This document shows positions 7,529 through 21,154 of a stretch of 21,154 bases of DNA, piece by piece. This DNA is from an uncultured Erysipelotrichaceae bacterium. GTDB lineage: Bacteria > Bacillota_I > Bacilli_A > RF39 > UBA660. The stretch lies in the NCBI GenBank assembly GCA_902768065.1, contig CACXJP010000056.1:1-21154 (forward strand). Reading direction: 5' to 3'. A program made the translations under genes and the position numbers. The notes beneath the pieces are model-generated. The model was given only the letters and a program-made list of their open reading frames with translations, had not been told where the DNA came from and did no database searches. Every line of letters starts with the position of its first letter. Position 1 is the first letter of the stretch.

Positions 7529-7796
7529 ATCCTACTTTAAAGAATACGATTTCTGTACCATTTCTAATATCAGAATCAATTACTGTTGTATTTAAATCAT
7601 ATATAGTACCAGATGTTTTATTCATTAGAACAAAGGAACTATTCATAATATCAATATTAATTCCATTAATGTCATAGACTGCTTTAGCTAAAAGTTTAGA
7701 TACTTTCCACATAATTTCATTAACCGGAATTTTAATATCATAACATTTATCCAACGAAGGGAAAATTGCTTTAATTATAACCTTACTCTTCATCAT
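7527..7796 (-). CDS. esaB: EsaB/YukD-like ubiquitin-fold protein of type VII secretion
   Basis: This is an 89-residue protein with the ubiquitin-like pattern of YukD/EsaB: strand KSKVIIKAIFP, strand CYDIKIPVN, helix EIMWKVSKLLAKAVYDI, then strands ending in DIRNGTEIVFFKVG, where DGTEI..L is the family's closing motif. EsaB is a small cytoplasmic component or regulator of the type VIIb system in Firmicutes. The start is the ATG at 7796 (a second ATG follows at once), preceded by GAGGT. It overlaps the end of essC by 14 bases, so the two are translationally coupled. This tight link to essC is usual for type VIIb loci and supports the call. Confidence 0.75.
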   Translation of the reverse strand: MMKSKVIIKAIFPSLDKCYDIKIPVNEIMWKVSKLLAKAVYDINGINIDIMNSSFVLMNKTSGTIYDLNTTVIDSDIRNGTEIVFFKVG

Positions 7797-9126
7797 CTTG
7801 ATCAACCTCGATTTTCTCAAATTCAATTAATTTAACAACATAATGCATTCCTTCACAAATATAATATCCATAATTAGGAGGCATTGGATCGGACATTTCC
7901 CTTGTAATAGTAGAAATTCTTAATATACTCTGATCTGATACACCATTTCCAACAAATACTCCTTCTGAAACATCAAACTTACCATACCAATTATCAAACA
8001 TATAATTCTTTATCTTTGATGATTCATCAACACCTAATATATAAGAATTTCCAGATTTAGCACACTCATCAACAAAATCAGAAAAAGCCATACTCTCATC
8101 ATTTAAACTAGATATTAGTTTATTAACTGATATAATAACAATAATATTATTAACATCCTTAGATTTTTGATTTTGGATGAATTTCTTAATTTTCTCCAAA
8201 ACATTATCAAAATCAGAATCATAATAATTTGTTACGCTACCTTTCAAATCTCCAAGTACCTGAGTTGGATCTAAAATAACCAGATTTTCTTTTGCATACT
8301 GAATTTCCTTAACAATATTCTTCATAAAGGTTGCAGCATATTTTATTTTTGAACAAATAACTAATTTTCCTGTTTCTACAGTAAGATCCAATGATCTAAT
8401 CTTCAATGTTCCACGTTCAATTCCAACAGGAAGTCTCTTAGCACCCTTAATTTTGCCCTTAACATCATCAAGCATAACTTGATCAGGTAATGCAGGTATT
8501 TTTAATGCAGGCTCAACATTAGAGTTTTTAACTTTTTCAAAAGCCTGTAACAATATATTGTTTCTTTCTACCTTATCTTCAGCTATAAATGCAAGCTGGA
8601 ATTCATGCAAAGTATCTTCATTTATACAAATACCTCTACCAAAATTGCTTTTAGGTTCTTTTCTTTCTCTAACACCAAAGCATGATCCATAATCAGCAAT
8701 TTCCTTAAGTTTAAATGCAAAATGCGAGTTCATAGTTTGTTCTACCTTTGAAGAAAGTAAAGCACTACTAGATATTAAGAATACTATACCAAATCTCTCG
8801 GAATCACGAGACATTCCAGGAAGTGTTTCAATTATATCAAACATTGCTTCCAAAATAGACTCCCAGTTATTAATTACAATAAGCATAATTGGCATCTTAC
8901 CAGGATTCTCTTTTACATAATCAAGATAATCCCCACCATATTCAGATAGAATTCTCTTTCTTTCTTTTTGTTCATTAGTGATTATCTTTAATAAGTTATT
9001 ATAACTTTCAGTATCTCCAGGAGTAACAATACCACCACAATGCAATGATTTACTATGTCTTTGGAAATTTTGTGATCCATAATCAATATGATACCTCAGA
9101 TGGAGTATAATTTGAAACAATACCAT
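7783..9126 (-). CDS. essC: EssC C-terminal fragment (end of ATPase 2 and ATPase 3)
   Basis: This is the third frame of the broken EssC motor. Homology should begin at about residue 15 (DYGSQNFQRHSKSLHCGGIV, the yxxDFGxxxLxxxxxxPHVGGVV element of FtsK/SpoIIIE domain 2). The 14 residues before it are frame noise, and the ATG at 9126 has no SD. The second ATPase continues with KMPIMLIVINNWESILE. The third starts at KRLPVGIERGTLKIRSLDL and ends in SKIKYAATFMKNIV, where a Walker A would be; it lacks GKS. Degenerate second and third ATPases are normal in EssC, where the tail binds substrates. The real upstream sequence is in the frame of 9083-11026, so translation of this part needs a +1 shift or the piece is dead. 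Confidence 0.75.
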   Translation of the reverse strand: MVLFQIILHLRYHIDYGSQNFQRHSKSLHCGGIVTPGDTESYNNLLKIITNEQKERKRILSEYGGDYLDYVKENPGKMPIMLIVINNWESILEAMFDIIETLPGMSRDSERFGIVFLISSSALLSSKVEQTMNSHFAFKLKEIADYGSCFGVRERKEPKSNFGRGICINEDTLHEFQLAFIAEDKVERNNILLQAFEKVKNSNVEPALKIPALPDQVMLDDVKGKIKGAKRLPVGIERGTLKIRSLDLTVETGKLVICSKIKYAATFMKNIVKEIQYAKENLVILDPTQVLGDLKGSVTNYYDSDFDNVLEKIKKFIQNQKSKDVNNIIVIISVNKLISSLNDESMAFSDFVDECAKSGNSYILGVDESSKIKNYMFDNWYGKFDVSEGVFVGNGVSDQSILRISTITREMSDPMPPNYGYYICEGMHYVVKLIEFEKIEVDQDDEE

Positions 9127-11026
9127 ACAATAAAGTACTTATGAATTCTTCTGTTTCTTGTGAATCTGTACTTACAATTGAAAGATTACCATCGGACAAT
9201 AAATTATATAATAAAGGATGTTGTTGTTGAAGTTCAGGAGCATCATACTCTCCAATTAACAAACTGAAGTCCTTTTTACTAGAATCAATATTATATTTCT
9301 TAATAGTATTATCAATTGTAATAACCTCAGGAATATTATCCAACCATAGTCTTCTTACAACCTTATTTGATTGTTTTGAAACATTTATAATTTCGTTCAA
9401 TACTGCAGCTAGTTGTTCACCCTGTGCTTCACCTTGAGCAGTTTTAGAACCAGATTGAATACTCTTAATAGCAATTCCGACATCATCCAAAATATTAATA
9501 CTCTTATCAACAGACTTTTGAATAACATCAGATGGATAATATTTCGCACCACACCATCCGGATTGACCTAATGCAAAATACTCATCATAACCAACCTGTA
9601 AATAGAAACGACCAGTCTGCTTTAATGAAGCAGCATCCTCTCTCTTTAACATTTCGTTTGAATCGCTAGCATCTTGAACTTTTAAACAAACCCTAAATTT
9701 AGAGTTTGACCAAATTTGTTCATCTACAACACCACTAGGCTTTTGTGTTGCAAGTATCAAGTGAACTCCAAGGGAACGTCCGATACGAGCTACACTTATC
9801 AAATTCTGCATGAAATCAGGTTGTTGAGATTTAAGTTCGGCGAACTCATCGCAGACTATAAACAAGTGTGGTAAAGGTTCATCAAGTTTTCCGTCATGAT
9901 AAAAACCTTGGTACTTATAAATATCTATTGTACTTTCTCCAAGCTTATCTCTTGCCTCATTGAATATACTTTGTCTTCTTTTTACCTCACTATCAATACT
10001 TACCAAAGTACGATTAATTTCAGACTTATCCAAGTTAGTAATTGTTCCAGCTAAGTGTGGAAGTCTAACACCAGTCACTTGATTCTCAAAGGCATAAGCT
10101 AATCCACCACCTTTGTAGTCAATTAATATAAAAGCAACATCATCAGGAGAAAAATTCATACATACAGATAAAATCCATGTAATAATAAACTCTGACTTAC
10201 CTGAACCAGTCATACCAGCAATAAGTCCATGTGGTCCATGCGCTTTTTCATGTAAATCCAAATATAAATATTTACCACCTGGATCTACACCAACTTCTGC
10301 TTTAAGATTAGTTGTAGAATCATTTGTATTCCATCTATTCATGATATTTAATTGTTCAACTTTACCAACTTTAAGCAATTCTAAGAAAGTGATAGCCTCG
10401 GGTAATTCACCAGCATCTTCATCATCTGATGTAATTTCAATTGGAATATTTGCAAGTATTTTTGCAACTTCCATCATATTAATGTTAGGATTTATTTCAT
10501 CTTTAAACATCTGTTGTTCTTGATCTTCATAAGAATTCTTCAAGATACCAGATAATCCATCATCAAGATTTATAAAATTGTTACACAAACTAGGCAACTT
10601 ACTCAATTTTCTCTCTAATATTATAGAACTAAATCCAACATTATCTTTTATCTCAGAAATCTTTTCAACAATATTATTTTTCTTAATAATATCTAAGTTA
10701 TCTACAATAATTAAGAAATATGGCTTTGGTGGTGAATCTGGCTTATCAGATTGAGACTTTCTAAATTCAACTAACTGCGATAAATAATCAATAATTTTAC
10801 TAGCATTATCTTCATCAGTTGCAAAGAAACGGAAACTATTATCATTAACCATATTGTGATTTAGATATTTTAAATAATCCCAATATTTTTCATCTTGTTC
10901 ACTAGTAAATACAACAACTTTTAAATCATCATATCCATAGAATGTTAAGAACTGAAATAAAACATTATTTATAAAATTATGACTCTTTTCAGGGTACATC
11001 TTTAATATATTTATATTTTTCAACAA
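9083..11026 (-). CDS. essC: EssC central fragment (ATPase 1 and start of ATPase 2)
   Basis: This is the middle frame of EssC, the FtsK/SpoIIIE-type ATPase that drives type VII secretion. Recognisable parts are the element before ATPase 1 (NNVLFQFLTFYGYDDLKVVVF), a complete Walker A GMTGSGKS (residues 271-278), the DYKGGGLA motif, Walker B with LFIVCDE (393-394), and the ATQKPSGVVDEQIWSN region. ATPase 1 therefore looks fully competent. ATPase 2 begins near residue 565 and has lost its Walker A (GNLSIVSTDSQETEEF). The frame opens at 11026 only with TTG. An ATG at 10999 overlaps the stop of the N-terminal fragment (ATGTACCCTGA) without an SD. Homology starts around residue 12. The frame ends at a TGA (9083) in the middle of a conserved strand. 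Confidence 0.8.
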   Translation of the reverse strand: MLKNINILKMYPEKSHNFINNVLFQFLTFYGYDDLKVVVFTSEQDEKYWDYLKYLNHNMVNDNSFRFFATDEDNASKIIDYLSQLVEFRKSQSDKPDSPPKPYFLIIVDNLDIIKKNNIVEKISEIKDNVGFSSIILERKLSKLPSLCNNFINLDDGLSGILKNSYEDQEQQMFKDEINPNINMMEVAKILANIPIEITSDDEDAGELPEAITFLELLKVGKVEQLNIMNRWNTNDSTTNLKAEVGVDPGGKYLYLDLHEKAHGPHGLIAGMTGSGKSEFIITWILSVCMNFSPDDVAFILIDYKGGGLAYAFENQVTGVRLPHLAGTITNLDKSEINRTLVSIDSEVKRRQSIFNEARDKLGESTIDIYKYQGFYHDGKLDEPLPHLFIVCDEFAELKSQQPDFMQNLISVARIGRSLGVHLILATQKPSGVVDEQIWSNSKFRVCLKVQDASDSNEMLKREDAASLKQTGRFYLQVGYDEYFALGQSGWCGAKYYPSDVIQKSVDKSINILDDVGIAIKSIQSGSKTAQGEAQGEQLAAVLNEIINVSKQSNKVVRRLWLDNIPEVITIDNTIKKYNIDSSKKDFSLLIGEYDAPELQQQHPLLYNLLSDGNLSIVSTDSQETEEFISTLLYGIVSNYTPSEVSY

Positions 11027-12287
11027 GTTCCTTAACTTTTTTCTTTAATTCATCTTCATCTGCACTAAATCCATCTTTAGGATCCTTAACCTTTACCTTT
11101 AGTAACTCATCACCAACACCTACTCTTGCTACTAAAAAGTCACTTTGATCAATTCTTTTATCCCAAAAACCAATTTTTCTTCTTTTTAAATTTTCTAAAC
11201 ATGCATCTAATGAAATAACATTCTCTATAATAATATCATTTTGTAATTTAGTTTCTTCTATTAATTCATCTTCTTTATCTTTTAAATATTTATTATATTT
11301 TTCAGTAGTTGTTTTATCCTTTTTAGCTTTATTTCTCTTATTATATATACTTATTACAGCGGGCCATAAAAGAGAAGAAACCAACATCAAAGCACCAGGT
11401 ATTATTTGCCCAATTACTGATGAAAGCTTTGCTTGACCAGAAATAACACTAACAATTGGTGTAATCATTGTAAAAGCAGAAGCTCCAGCCATTGTAACCA
11501 TAGGCCCAGCTGTCAAAATAAAAGGTAAATCTTCAGCTTGAGAAACAGATGGAGGATCTGATAATTCAATTTCTTTTTCCTTAATTACTCTCCTTAAACG
11601 AGGTGACTTAAAATAGTAATCATCATCAGTAAATAAATCTCTATCTTTTACTTCATAATCATTATAATCATTTTTAACAATTAAATTATAGGGGCTTAAA
11701 TGAGCTGAACTTGCATTTATAGAAAATACATTATCATCTGAATAAACAATAACTATTTTATTCAGAATTAGAATTCTCGCACCATACAATGATATCTCAT
11801 CACCTATTTTTAATAATATCTCATTACCAACAGGATTCTTTTTATTCAAATATGTTCCAGCATTAGATTTTTGTAATACTAGTTTATTATCTTTATAAAG
11901 AATTTTGAAAGATAATTGTTTGATATATGGACAACTATATACACTAGTTGCATTATCTACGCCAACGCTTATTTCAAACTCATTACCATAAGCATAAGAT
12001 TTAAAATTCTTTTCATCATAGTCAGTTACATATATCAAAAAATTAACTTTTTCTCTTGTAATAACATAGAATTTATAAGGTAATAATTCATCTTCAGCAA
12101 CATATTGACTACCACTTAAAACCTTACAAACATCAGTAGAAGATAAAATCCATTTTCCATCTTTAGAATTAACATTGATTAGTTTATCTACTTCATTTTC
12201 ATCCATGTCAAAAGAATAACTACCAGAAACAATCTCTGGTAAGTAAAATATTTTAACTTGATTACTTAAATATAAATATATTTTCAC
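10989..12287 (-). CDS. essC: EssC N-terminal fragment (FHA-like domains and membrane hairpin)
   Basis: This is the first frame of EssC, 432 residues. Two beta-rich, FHA-like parts occupy about residues 1-95 and 97-190 (GNEFEISVGVD..SFKILYKDNKLVLQKSN..TYLNKK). They are followed by a basic linker and two membrane helices (about 254-283 and 291-316). A coiled coil (317-360) and the family element FWDKRIDQSDFLVARVGVGD come next. It ends in KKKVKELVEKYKYIKDVP and then TGA, just where intact EssC proteins continue with a short strand (VPxxxxLxxxxxIGIxG) into the ATPases. The start is the GTG at 12287 with AAGGTGATT upstream. With the next two frames the total is about 1,500 residues, the normal size of EssC. 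It is the first gene of the type VII run. Confidence 0.8.
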   Translation of the reverse strand: MKIYLYLSNQVKIFYLPEIVSGSYSFDMDENEVDKLINVNSKDGKWILSSTDVCKVLSGSQYVAEDELLPYKFYVITREKVNFLIYVTDYDEKNFKSYAYGNEFEISVGVDNATSVYSCPYIKQLSFKILYKDNKLVLQKSNAGTYLNKKNPVGNEILLKIGDEISLYGARILILNKIVIVYSDDNVFSINASSAHLSPYNLIVKNDYNDYEVKDRDLFTDDDYYFKSPRLRRVIKEKEIELSDPPSVSQAEDLPFILTAGPMVTMAGASAFTMITPIVSVISGQAKLSSVIGQIIPGALMLVSSLLWPAVISIYNKRNKAKKDKTTTEKYNKYLKDKEDELIEETKLQNDIIIENVISLDACLENLKRRKIGFWDKRIDQSDFLVARVGVGDELLKVKVKDPKDGFSADEDELKKKVKELVEKYKYIKDVP

Positions 12288-13486: not shown

Positions 13487-13515
13487 AAACAAATAAGCTA
13501 TTTGCTTATTTGTTT
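13487..13515 (-). terminator. Intrinsic terminator of the surface-protein gene
   Basis: A perfect 12 bp stem (arm AAACAAATAAGC, five-base loop) overlaps the stop codon at 13506-13508 and runs into a U tract on the minus strand. Confidence 0.85.
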
Positions 13516-15056
13516 AATCTTTTTTTCTTATTTTTTTCAATACTTTTTCCATTTATATATAGTAATGTAATTACAAATATAAATATTATAATGACCTTTA
13601 ATACATTAAGTCCTGTTTCTGGATTAATTATTTCATCATCATTTCTAAATAACGTATAAAGAGTATCATTACCTACAACTTTATAGTCTTTTGAAAGTCT
13701 TTCCCTATTCTTATCAACAAGACCTACAAATGTATAACCATCTTTATGTGGATTTAACATTGCAACAATCTGATCATAAGTTGTTCCATGAGTAAATATA
13801 TAATCTACATCATCTACACTAACTGTATAACTCTTTAAAGTAAAGAATAATTCAACCTCTTGATCTGCTCCTATATCTTCAATATTTAATGTATTATTTC
13901 TAACAGAAGCTGAAGTACCATTAACCATAGCTGACTTTAATACATATCCTTCATTTGCAACTATTTTAGCTAGTAAATTACCACTATGTTCTATACTTAC
14001 AAGACCATATAAATCAATTTCTTGCCCATCTTTTATATATATAACTTTTCCATTTTTATCAATTTTAAATTTAATCTTATAAGTTTTCTTTATAAAATCA
14101 GCATTAACATATACTCCTTTTATATTACTTGCAAATTCCTCATCAAACTCAGCATAATAATGTCCATCACTAGAAGTAACTGGTATTTCATTACCCAAAA
14201 CCGGTTCCGTACCATTATATCCTGTAATTGCATGAGCAGTAACTTCAGAAACATCATAACCAGTTATTGGTTCAGCATTAATACTTATAATATAATTTGA
14301 TTGTTCAGCTTCATCAGTATAACTAGCACTCAATTCACCTGTAATCAAATCATCATTAACTACAATTGGAATTCTATCTTTTAATCCTTCAACAGCATTA
14401 GTTAGACCATTATAAGCATCAACATATCTACTGGTATAAACTACCCCTTCAGATGAGTCATTCTTATGAATAACAAGAGGAGTATCTGTAGAACCATAAG
14501 GATTATCATAGTTAATTATTTCATTTGAATTATCATATTCTGTTTTTAATGTATTATATGTTCTTTTAGTATATTTTAGACGTTTTTCAACCTTATTTGT
14601 TGTTGAATTAACTAAAGTAGTTAAACCTGAAGTATCATAAACATACCATTCACCAATATACTTACCATCATATGGCGTATTAAATATATATAAGTAATCA
14701 TTAATCAAATCAGAATCATCCATGATAGTAGACAAATTAATTGTTTGAGCATCATAATCATTATTAAACAAAACCATATTGAATGTTTTACCATTTTGAA
14801 CAGTATAACAATAAAAATTATCATCATTCTTAGTCATTGCTTCGCCAGGCCATACTGAAATAGGTTGGTCAGAATTATAATCCCATCCATACAAATGTGC
14901 ATTACCAAAAACATTTGAAGAAGCACATATCTTCTTTCCTGGAGTAACAGCTCTTACACCAACAGAAATATTACTAGTAGCATACACATTATCAACAAAA
15001 AATAATGCTAAAGCAAATACAAAAATATATTTAAATAAATTCTTTATCCTATTCAT
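13506..15056 (-). CDS. Secreted surface protein with CBM26-like starch-binding module and NPETG sorting tail
   Basis: This is a 516-residue exported protein. Residues 1-26 are a signal peptide with probable cleavage after VYA. Residues about 48-110 match the starch-binding module CBM26 (YGWDYNSDQPISVWPGEAM, YCYTV, NMVLFNNDYDAQTINL). A FIVAR-like helical stretch (about 150-230), beta-rich regions and an InlB-type repeat (YTVSVDDVDYIFTHGTTYDQIV..GYTFVGLVD) follow. The C-terminus is NPETG (478-482), a hydrophobic helix and a basic tail, the layout of a sortase substrate. NPxTG in place of LPxTG is a variant; a plain membrane anchor is the alternative. No catalytic domain is visible, so it probably binds alpha-glucan at the cell surface. 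The start at 15056 follows TAGGTGATT. It is monocistronic, with a promoter at 15078-15106. Confidence 0.7.
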   Translation of the reverse strand: MNRIKNLFKYIFVFALALFFVDNVYATSNISVGVRAVTPGKKICASSNVFGNAHLYGWDYNSDQPISVWPGEAMTKNDDNFYCYTVQNGKTFNMVLFNNDYDAQTINLSTIMDDSDLINDYLYIFNTPYDGKYIGEWYVYDTSGLTTLVNSTTNKVEKRLKYTKRTYNTLKTEYDNSNEIINYDNPYGSTDTPLVIHKNDSSEGVVYTSRYVDAYNGLTNAVEGLKDRIPIVVNDDLITGELSASYTDEAEQSNYIISINAEPITGYDVSEVTAHAITGYNGTEPVLGNEIPVTSSDGHYYAEFDEEFASNIKGVYVNADFIKKTYKIKFKIDKNGKVIYIKDGQEIDLYGLVSIEHSGNLLAKIVANEGYVLKSAMVNGTSASVRNNTLNIEDIGADQEVELFFTLKSYTVSVDDVDYIFTHGTTYDQIVAMLNPHKDGYTFVGLVDKNRERLSKDYKVVGNDTLYTLFRNDDEIINPETGLNVLKVIIIFIFVITLLYINGKSIEKNKKKRLNK

Positions 15057-19200: not shown

Positions 19201-19788
19201 CTACTTAAACTTTTCTTCTAATAATTCTATCTTACTAATCCTTTTCAATTCAAAATGTCTTAAATCATTTTTTAATTCACAATAAGCAGCACAACCCCAA
19301 CCAGTATTATATAGAAATAAGTCTAGTGGATGTACAACTCTTTCTTGAACCCCATGTACATAAGAATAATAATCTATCTTTACTTTTCTTTTTTCCTTAA
19401 TTGCTTTAGTAAAGATATTATAATAATTTCTTGTATCATCTTTAAGTTCAATACTCTCATCTTTAGAATCAAAATATACCCCATGTACTTTATCTGCAAT
19501 AACCATTAACTGATCCTTATATTCTGGAGCAACATCTAAATCTTTAAGAAATTTATAGTCACTTAACTTAAATTTTCTCTTAGGAATCTTTATACTTTGA
19601 TTAAGTACATATCCTCCATAGGGTCCCATTATAGTATCTATATAAATACCAGCCTTCTCAAGTTCATCTTTATACATTCTAACCATTCTAGGAGTAACTT
19701 CTAGTTTTTCGGATAATTCTTTTACACTGTATTTTCTACCATTACTAAGATATTGAAGCATCAAAATAACATTAGATATCTTTGACAT
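19201..19788 (-). CDS. HTH-WYL domain transcriptional regulator
   Basis: This is a 195-residue DNA-binding protein. Residues 1-60 form an HTH_11-type winged helix (KISNVILMLQYLSNGRKYSVKELSEKLEVTPRMVRMYKDEL, then the wing GPYGGYVL). The C-terminal half is a WYL domain (AIKEKRKVKIDYYS..ERVVHPLDLFLYNTGWGCAAYC..LRHFELKRISKIELLEEKF). The Trp-Tyr-Leu triplet itself is replaced by WGCAAYC, while the Arg-rich RHFELKRI ligand strand is kept. WYL proteins sense nucleic-acid or other ligands and often control neighbouring genes, which suggests it regulates this operon (inference). The protein is shorter than usual (300 residues) and lacks the WCX tail. The start at 19788 has AGGTGG upstream, inside the end of the HD gene (overlap 17 bases). 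Confidence 0.8.
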   Translation of the reverse strand: MSKISNVILMLQYLSNGRKYSVKELSEKLEVTPRMVRMYKDELEKAGIYIDTIMGPYGGYVLNQSIKIPKRKFKLSDYKFLKDLDVAPEYKDQLMVIADKVHGVYFDSKDESIELKDDTRNYYNIFTKAIKEKRKVKIDYYSYVHGVQERVVHPLDLFLYNTGWGCAAYCELKNDLRHFELKRISKIELLEEKFK

Positions 19789-20695
19789 CACTCCACCTAC
19801 TTCCTCTATATATAGGATTAATCTTTCTAATCTTAATTTTAGGCATCTCTCTATCAGGAATATCTTCTTTTTTAATATTATAAAATAAAGATAGTAATTC
19901 TTTTATTTCACTTATATTACAATTATCTAATATAAAAAACAATTCAACTTCTGTTAATCTATATAAGTCATCATAAGTAAATAAGTTATTTTTAATACCA
20001 AGTCTAGTAATATCAGCAAGTAAATTCATCATATAATTATCTTCCATAGATTGACAATATACATTGATTAAATCATTTATTTCCACAACTCTTTTTAAAA
20101 CATCCAAGTCATTTAAACCAATCTCATCTAAATTATTCTCATTCTTATAAATACACATAGAATTAACTATTCTATCTATATCATCAAGACTTATATTTTT
20201 AGTCCATCCCATCCCAGTAAGTATTATTCCATCTAATCTATCAGAACATAAAGACGGTCTATCTAAATCAACAAGACTATATTTTTTAAAATTAACAACA
20301 TCACTAACATCAATATTATCCAATTCTAAACAACCAAGTAATTCCTTATCATTAAGAATAATCTTCTCAGTATACTCCTCAGTACTTTCTTGAGTAATAT
20401 AATCTCCATTCATATAATCAATAACATGAGAAAAACAAGGAGTTGCAATATCATGAAGAAGACCAGCAATAGTAACTTTTTTATCCCCAGTAAGTTTATA
20501 AATCATTAAAGCAACAGTTAAAGAATGATCATATCTACTAATATATTCAGAAAAATTATAAATATTTTTAGATGCAAAGTCCATTCCGCAAAAATATCCA
20601 ACTCTCTTCAATCTGCATAAAGAAGGTACATTCAAATACTTTTTTAAAAAAGAAGGTATATCATCTAATCTATTCTTATAATGTTCTAAATACAT
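19772..20695 (-). CDS. HD-domain phosphohydrolase
   Basis: This is a 307-residue cytoplasmic protein with an HD metal-dependent phosphohydrolase domain. The sequence shows YDHSLTVALMIYKL (His57), GLLHDIATPCFSHVID (His81-Asp82, His90) and, further on, SDRLDGIIL with the last metal-binding Asp. The HDIATPCFSHVID form and the overall helical layout recall the SAMHD1/dGTPase-like branch, so a nucleotide substrate is plausible but unproven. The C-terminal third is helical with a basic end (KIKIRKINPIYRGSRW). The start ATG at 20695 has GGGTGG five bases upstream and was preferred to the GTG at 20704. It is the first gene of a probable six-gene operon and overlaps the WYL gene. Confidence 0.8.
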   Translation of the reverse strand: MYLEHYKNRLDDIPSFLKKYLNVPSLCRLKRVGYFCGMDFASKNIYNFSEYISRYDHSLTVALMIYKLTGDKKVTIAGLLHDIATPCFSHVIDYMNGDYITQESTEEYTEKIILNDKELLGCLELDNIDVSDVVNFKKYSLVDLDRPSLCSDRLDGIILTGMGWTKNISLDDIDRIVNSMCIYKNENNLDEIGLNDLDVLKRVVEINDLINVYCQSMEDNYMMNLLADITRLGIKNNLFTYDDLYRLTEVELFFILDNCNISEIKELLSLFYNIKKEDIPDREMPKIKIRKINPIYRGSRWSDVKDI

Positions 20696-20714
20696 ACAAA
20701 CCACCCATAGAAGT

Positions 20715-20744
20715 ATTATAACAAAAAAGAGACAATATTGTCTC
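20715..20744 (-). promoter_or_regulatory. Probable promoter of the HD-WYL-SIS-DHH-CDF operon
   Basis: Minus strand: GAGACA (20744-20739), an 18-base spacer and TATAAT (20720-20715). The leader would be only about 13 bases. The -35 lies inside the terminator palindrome of the upstream gene. Confidence 0.45.
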
Positions 20745-20746
20745 TT
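20727..20746 (-). terminator. Perfect palindrome and terminator behind the DUF6273 gene
   Basis: Two 10-base arms (AAGAGACAAT and ATTGTCTCTT) abut without a spacer and are followed on the minus strand by T4GT. It starts 12 bases after the stop at 20759. If the gene end is a DGR variable region, this is where a downstream cruciform would be expected. Confidence 0.7.
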
Positions 20747-20758
20747 ATAATTTTATAT

Positions 20759-21154
20759 TTACCCGATTCGGAAAGCTGGAGCGACACCATAAGTCTTACT
20801 AGCATCATTGTTGTTCAAGTCACCATAGTCAACATCACGGAAACTGCTACTGCCATTAGAATTGGCCGAACGCAACCACCACCATGTATTTGATGAATTA
20901 TATTGTTTAACTGTTTTATCTAGATTTCTTCCACTCCAACTATTTGTTGAGTATGTAACTCCATTATTACTATAATATTCTAATTGATGTGACGTTCCAT
21001 ATGCTGTATCATAGAAATGATATTGTCCATCATCTATTCCATATACTTCTTCTGATGATAGTAAATATAATTTATCTGTTGTTGTAAAGTTTGTTGAATC
21101 ATTTGATCCATGTCCTGATATTACTCTTGTTGGTTTTATTACTGCTTGTAAATC
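20759..21154 (-). CDS. DUF6273-type surface protein, 5' end outside window; possible DGR variable protein
   Basis: The last 131 codons of a protein are visible. The sequence LYLLSSEEVYGIDDGQYHFYD, then SWSGRNLDKTVKQYN, WWWLRSAN and the ending TYGVAPAFRIG is the DUF6273/C-lectin-like domain found in surface proteins of gut Firmicutes (WWLRS...GVxPAFRI). The part from 21154 to 20885 uses A-ending codons (28% GC by hand count). The last 41 codons switch to TTG, CGT, TCG, GCC, TTC and GTC (48% GC). Between RSA and TYGVAP, residues 98-119 are almost only Asn, Ser, Gly, Asp and Tyr with C/T third bases. That pattern suggests adenine-targeted diversification. Signal peptide and anchor, if present, lie outside the window. 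Confidence 0.75.
   Translation of the reverse strand, partial: DLQAVIKPTRVISGHGSNDSTNFTTTDKLYLLSSEEVYGIDDGQYHFYDTAYGTSHQLEYYSNNGVTYSTNSWSGRNLDKTVKQYNSSNTWWWLRSANSNGSSSFRDVDYGDLNNNDASKTYGVAPAFRIG
20762..20884 (-). other. Candidate diversity-generating retroelement variable repeat (VR)
   Basis: These 41 codons at the 3' end of the DUF6273 gene have 48% GC against 28% upstream. Sixteen codons (residues 98, 100-104, 107, 109-112, 114-117 and 119) are AAT, AAC, AGT, AGC, GGC, GGT, GAT, GAC or TAT, all reachable from AAY by substitutions at A alone. Conserved positions between them (Phe, Arg, Val, Leu, Ala) have A-poor codons. No template repeat or reverse transcriptase is in the window, so this is inference. 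Confidence 0.45.

Follow-up and report, generated by a model that had tools for sequence, protein, structure and literature searches.

Targets that lie away from their diversity-generating retroelement (DGR), and targets that persist without a reverse transcriptase (RT), are already known elsewhere (PMC4891356, PMC7517822). In cyanobacteria, the remote targets are C-lectin paralogs; that study (PMC7517822) describes one or a few cassettes, dispersed paralogs with a C-terminal lectin domain, graded homology between variable repeat (VR) and template, and one variable domain joined to differing N-terminal domains. Treponema denticola DGRs also have remote targets, and there are isolates with targets but without RT and template (PMC4891356). 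In tentaclins (PMC10743442) and in Faecalibacterium prophages (PMC11792537), a VR ends a DUF6273 domain with a C-lectin fold, and the targets are phage proteins. A large metagenome survey of DGRs places remote targets beyond its detection (PMC8144416).

We analyzed a window (the whole stretch of 21,154 nucleotides) from an uncultured Erysipelotrichaceae-like lineage, which ends in a DUF6273 gene of a family that shares the features named above with each of these systems. Cyanobacterial targets are mostly cytosolic kinase or peptidase fusions (PMC7517822), whereas the proteins studied here combine an N-terminal hydrophobic helix with DUF6273 and belong to small gut genomes of a Bacilli-like lineage. 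The Treponema denticola targets (PMC4891356) are of another family and another lineage, and the gut-phage targets are phage proteins, whereas no relative of the window protein was found in the viral contigs scanned. A literature search of partial coverage, judged by title and the start of the abstract, found no paper on DGRs of Erysipelotrichaceae. On balance, we regard the window gene as a remote target, dispersed or orphaned, that belongs to a chromosomal DGR family of this lineage, a reading that we hold with moderate confidence.

The window gene, its flank and its relatives

The DUF6273 gene is open at the window edge, with its 5' end beyond the window, and its VR forms the 3' end of a gene with a C-type-lectin-like domain (Table 1). 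Its stop codon occupies 20759-20761. The difference in GC content first noted for its end, 48% in the last 123 bp and 28% in the preceding 270 bp, was borne out (0.480 versus 0.278). Only 2 of 21,031 segments of 123 bp reached 0.480, both of them the tail itself (starts 20761 and 20762), and GC at third codon positions rose from 0.06 to 0.46 on entering the tail. The constant tail probably corresponds in place to the initiation-of-mutagenic-homing sequence of known DGRs; at the counterpart of this stretch, the template of the related genome G014 diverges from the VRs.

Table 1. Features at the 3' end of the window gene and downstream of it
Feature	Position	Strand	Evidence
DUF6273 gene, 3' part (131 codons and stop)	20759..21154	-	Pfam DUF6273, E 1.6e-13, residues 3-130
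GC-rich tail containing the VR (interval of the original prediction)	20762..20884	-	GC 0.480; homology to the template and VRs found in relatives
Variable block, residues 98-122, corresponding to the AAY-rich stretch in the template	20789..20863	-	Column entropy
Constant tail GVAPAFRIG	20762..20788	-	Mean entropy 0.17 bits
Perfect 20-bp palindrome AAGAGACAATATTGTCTCTT, then T run (intrinsic terminator)	20727..20746		Terminator-like, both strands
Next gene downstream, HD-domain protein	19772..20704	-	Pfam HD, E 1.6e-6

The perfect 20-bp palindrome noted 12 bases after the stop codon is present, but the role proposed for it, a DGR hairpin behind the VR, was rejected: it scores as an intrinsic terminator (terminator-like on both strands; 2 found versus 0.1 in shuffles), and cassette-side VRs carry a different element. 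A hairpin behind the VR is not universal among DGRs. In related genomes, inverted repeats with T runs, of sequences other than that of the window, also terminate many VR genes. The VR gene of G022:C11 (L051 1114-1180) and window positions 20715-20758 have a nearly identical 3' flank and terminator, followed by different genes.

No avd gene, template or RT was found 3' of the window VR, and within the window we found no second template-like copy, no RT-2 RNA (Rfam family search) and no RT or DGR cassette. The window copy is therefore remote or orphaned. Elsewhere in the window, positions 7783-12287 hold an FtsK/SpoIIIE-type ATPase (9083-11026), adjoining ORFs and small helical proteins downstream, of which the ATPase alone was matched; the cluster presumably resembles a type VII secretion cluster. 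Positions 13506-15056 encode a secreted-looking protein with a starch-binding module (CBM26).

A genome-collection scan gave two loci, both in the MAG RUG14412 ("uncultured Erysipelotrichaceae bacterium", G001), and the VR was matched in 13 of the 39 genomes of the G001 genus at E 0.001. A family-wide VR search at E 1e-9 matched 2 of 386 genomes, a weak negative with at most two candidates per genome scored. With two neighboring genes as query (1,504 bp), the best match was G014 (73% over 1,496 bp), and partial matches were found in G001 (72% and 75%) and G006 (77%); these identities place the window in another species of the G001/G014 group. Eight related genomes carry 3 to 16 DUF6273 matches each.

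Variability of the protein family

A search with the window domain yielded 1,169 homologues, the best 120 of which were listed; 76 of these fit one VR frame and gave 58 distinct VRs, and the other 44 were excluded from the residue count. Among the best 80 homologues, mean column entropy was 0.50 bits for residues 1-92, 2.31 bits for the VR block and 0.17 bits for the last nine residues. The residues K, Q, E, M and W, which are unreachable from AAY by adenine changes, took 10 of 984 template-Asn positions in the 58 distinct VRs, versus 3,944 of 26,556 positions (14.9%) outside the VR. The Lys of the window is among the 10 exceptions. It is encoded by codon 120 (AAG), which fails the claim that sixteen codons of the window gene are derivable from AAC or AAT via adenine changes; that claim is thus weaker than made, and because such derivability holds for any codon ending in C or T, it is no test by itself and the count needs a template.

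VR identities of 3,160 pairs were split: 33 pairs were identical, 9 lay at 0.8-1, none at 0.7-0.8 and 3,118 below 0.7. Upstream identity reached 97% or more in 41 pairs; of these, 29 had a VR identity below 0.6 and 10 shared one VR. Judged by these identities, VR alleles jump and hardly drift.

A sequence search of solved structures with the target profile gave no match. With the model of protein P0001, Foldseek named no lectin domain among the 50 matches listed (the IgA peptidase stood at rank 43); the clear structural match came from a second aligner.

DGR cassettes in related genomes

On contig C13 of G014, an Avd-like ORF (187 aa) is followed by a template repeat, an Rfam RT-2 RNA and an RT ORF (359 aa; RVT_1, 42.2 bits) that adjoins the template. 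This template is adenine-rich and has the same scaffold as the window VR; a template for the window VR would be expected to read TTGCGTTCGGCC AAT TCT AAT ... G098 and G413 hold complete cassettes, each headed by a DUF6273 target. Their order of target, avd, template and RT is that of the BPP-1 type DGR, as is adenine mutagenesis. Unlike that type, the Avd-position ORFs of G014 and G098 (187-192 aa) have no Pfam or NCBIfam match, the Avd-like ORF matching solely a PHROG of unknown function, and the RT motif is LGxxxAQ instead of the usual xGxxxSQ.

Relatives of the G014 RT are present in 17 of 386 family genomes (E 1e-25); 8 of the 17 are at least 56% identical, and one of the 8 (G041) has in-frame stops. 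Within the genus, RVT_1 was matched in 10 of 39 genomes but the G014-type RT in G014 alone; G008 and G013 gave weak matches to it (27-30% identity). At 5 of the 12 cassette loci scanned, a template/VR pair differed at template adenines alone, with 19, 14, 20, 23 and 17 mismatches and no non-adenine mismatch in 90 bases. The pairs with 19/19, 14/14 and 20/20 adenine mismatches accompany RTs 64-71% identical to the G014 RT, and those with 23/23 and 17/17 accompany two RTs of 34-35% identity. The other 7 loci gave no adenine-only pair under the limits used, although one of them, L002, does have a template and a VR, with 5 non-adenine mismatches. Matches to the template in L007 and L074 were discarded, as their richness in adenine explains them by chance. 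Two template-like repeats that are rich in adenine and nearly identical, at L067 2952-3037 and L071 638-723, lie near RVT_1 matches in G013 and G008 and point to another DGR, perhaps phage-borne.

A search of 6 loci for the RT-2 RNA succeeded at 4: it lies in the template-RT interval of G014, G098 and G413 and just before the RT in G219, where no template was located. In G014 it overlaps the RT ORF at the first codons listed. RT-2 (RF03077) positions on minus strands in the template-RT interval were L045 9698-9907, L079 1259-1452 and L094 2200-2390. Because it sits between template and RT, the RT-2 RNA may be the 3' part of the DGR template RNA. A literature search of partial coverage found no paper linking RT-2 RNA with DGRs.

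The template, RT, Avd-like ORF and adenine-only differences are thus present in relatives, and they support the original prediction that the window gene is, or was, a DGR target, perhaps with a distant DGR. That prediction was right in substance: the protein family of the window gene is a DGR target family. For the window copy, "was" fits better than "is".

Origin and present state of the window copy

VRs were compared in trans with templates over 84 bases. Against the G014 template, which is that of another species, the window VR is changed at 10 of 32 adenine sites and at 4 of 52 others (Fisher p = 0.0065), and one of the four non-adenine differences gives the Lys codon. Every one of the 10 adenine changes is an A-to-G transition. 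In eight reference pairs, A to G made up 83 of 150 adenine changes, and 10 of 10 would arise with a chance of about 0.003 if changes were independent. We can explain this pattern no further than by chance, by a G-biased event or by a template differing from that of G014. These changes and the four non-adenine differences, one of them leading to Lys, count against our explanation.

Against the G014 template, the VR of G001:C40 showed 19 adenine changes and 0 of 52 others; against the G001 template, that of G001:C9 showed 16 and 0. The VRs of G014:C37 and G001:C15 showed 22 adenine and 4 other, and 23 adenine and 5 other changes, respectively, against their own templates, and the remaining G014 VRs fit the G014 template worse, with 13 to 17 non-adenine changes. 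The cassette VR of G098 has 0 of 51 non-adenine changes and seven VRs on non-cassette contigs have 2, 3, 6, 8, 8, 8 and 12 of 51; six further rows did not align. Two of these seven come from a single gene (G098:C62; L159, L160), whose tandem DUF6273 domains have identical VRs and are 96% identical over 515 bp. The G098 gradient is consistent with copies at which overwriting has ceased.

Behind the cassette-side VRs of G098, G187 and G413 lies a conserved element, CTCCGAACGgAAGTGAGGAC (short form CTCCGAACG), found at seven places in all. It also lies behind the VR of G022:C128 and before the lone template of G001:C15, with a weak form in G031:C18, and occurs in G219 without a recognized VR end. 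We did not find it in the window or within 260 bp of the seven G098 VRs off the cassette contig. The element may serve homing or the avd gene. G001:C15 (L002 330-818) holds a VR gene and a template with no avd or RT ORF between them or right behind in the stretch listed, and has the appearance of a cassette whose enzymes were lost; neither PF00078, the G014 RT as query nor RT-2 RNA revealed an RT in G001.

The exact window VR occurs in seven database proteins (P0001-P0006 and P0068) and is invariant among them at the protein level. Among the 13 proteins listed of 48 candidates, the next match is 71% identical, with nothing between 71% and 100%. Identity among the N-terminal halves of P0001-P0006 is 51-93%; P0068 is too short to measure. 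Similarly, 11 VR alleles are common to at least two of 80 proteins, of which 8 span N-terminal halves below 80% identity, 1 does not and 2 are unmeasurable. Conversely, all 17 pairs with N-terminal halves at least 95% identical differ in VR, a figure inflated by the clustering of the database at 90% identity, which may merge pairs alike in both parts. VRs and N-termini thus seem to have been reassorted among paralogs, unless chimeras explain part of the pattern; the proteins sharing a VR come partly from short metagenome contigs, in which chimeras could mimic a shared VR on different N-termini. With the same proviso, target genes seem to move between species, since the upstream DNA of the window gene is 92% identical over 208 bp to two G001 genes, versus 72-75% in the neighboring genes. 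The VRs of those two genes are 66-68% identical to that of the window.

In the proposed mechanism, the RT and its Avd-like partner would copy the adenine-rich template RNA with random bases opposite adenines, and the cDNA would replace the last ~90 bp of a DUF6273 gene. Such rewriting would alter the ligand-facing part of a C-type-lectin-like domain carried on an N-terminal hydrophobic helix, and the window VR would have been made by the same route as those of its relatives. Because its exact VR stands in seven proteins with the next match at 71%, the window copy is probably dormant; the likelier of two readings is that it is settled and carried on by duplication and recombination, not by rewriting. 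The terminator behind its VR, the missing cassette-side element and the non-adenine gradient of G098 point the same way.

In the other reading, which is possible but the less likely, a DGR of its own genome still rewrites the window VR in trans. G001:C9 and C40 favor it: they lie away from any RT and have no cassette-side element, yet all 51 or 52 non-adenine bases match the template, which shows that distance from a cassette does not keep a copy from being fresh. The precedents in Treponema denticola and cyanobacteria (PMC4891356 and PMC7517822) are in line with this reading. The invariant VR of the seven proteins, the gap between 71% and 100%, the A-to-G-only changes and the differences from the G014 template, albeit that of another species, argue against it.

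That the tail of the lectin domain evolved fast by ordinary means, with no DGR history and with a GC shift due to transfer of a C-terminal segment, is very improbable: the solely A-to-G transitions, the four non-adenine changes and the movement of the family between species would suit it, but the VR identities are split with no gradual drift, K, Q, E, M and W are depleted and the tail is homologous to a template. Equally hard to credit is a phage gene targeted by a prophage DGR, for although DUF6273 is a known DGR target in gut phages (PMC10743442 and PMC11792537), the viral proteins that match best in structure are DUF6273 proteins of phages and one relative has a domain matched by a Hoc-like PHROG, two DNA-pattern and two protein-guided scans found no relative of the window protein or the G014 RT in viral contigs, just 2 phage records matched at 31-33% identity, and the window neighbors tested are not phage-like.

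The preferred reading, a settled remote target, can tentatively be extended to a system that works in two steps. In the first, mutagenic reverse transcription would make new VRs at a site on the cassette side that bears the conserved element. In the second, homologous recombination would distribute the finished VRs among the many dispersed surface genes, which differ in their N-termini, and across species as well; the VRs would form a stored repertoire, with the window copy as one variant. VRs of this family are recognizable without a cassette through their scaffold and codon content. What merits testing is the possibility that finished VRs are stored and reshuffled: if so, the repertoire that cellular DGRs build would be a lasting one, and our understanding of how they are used would change.
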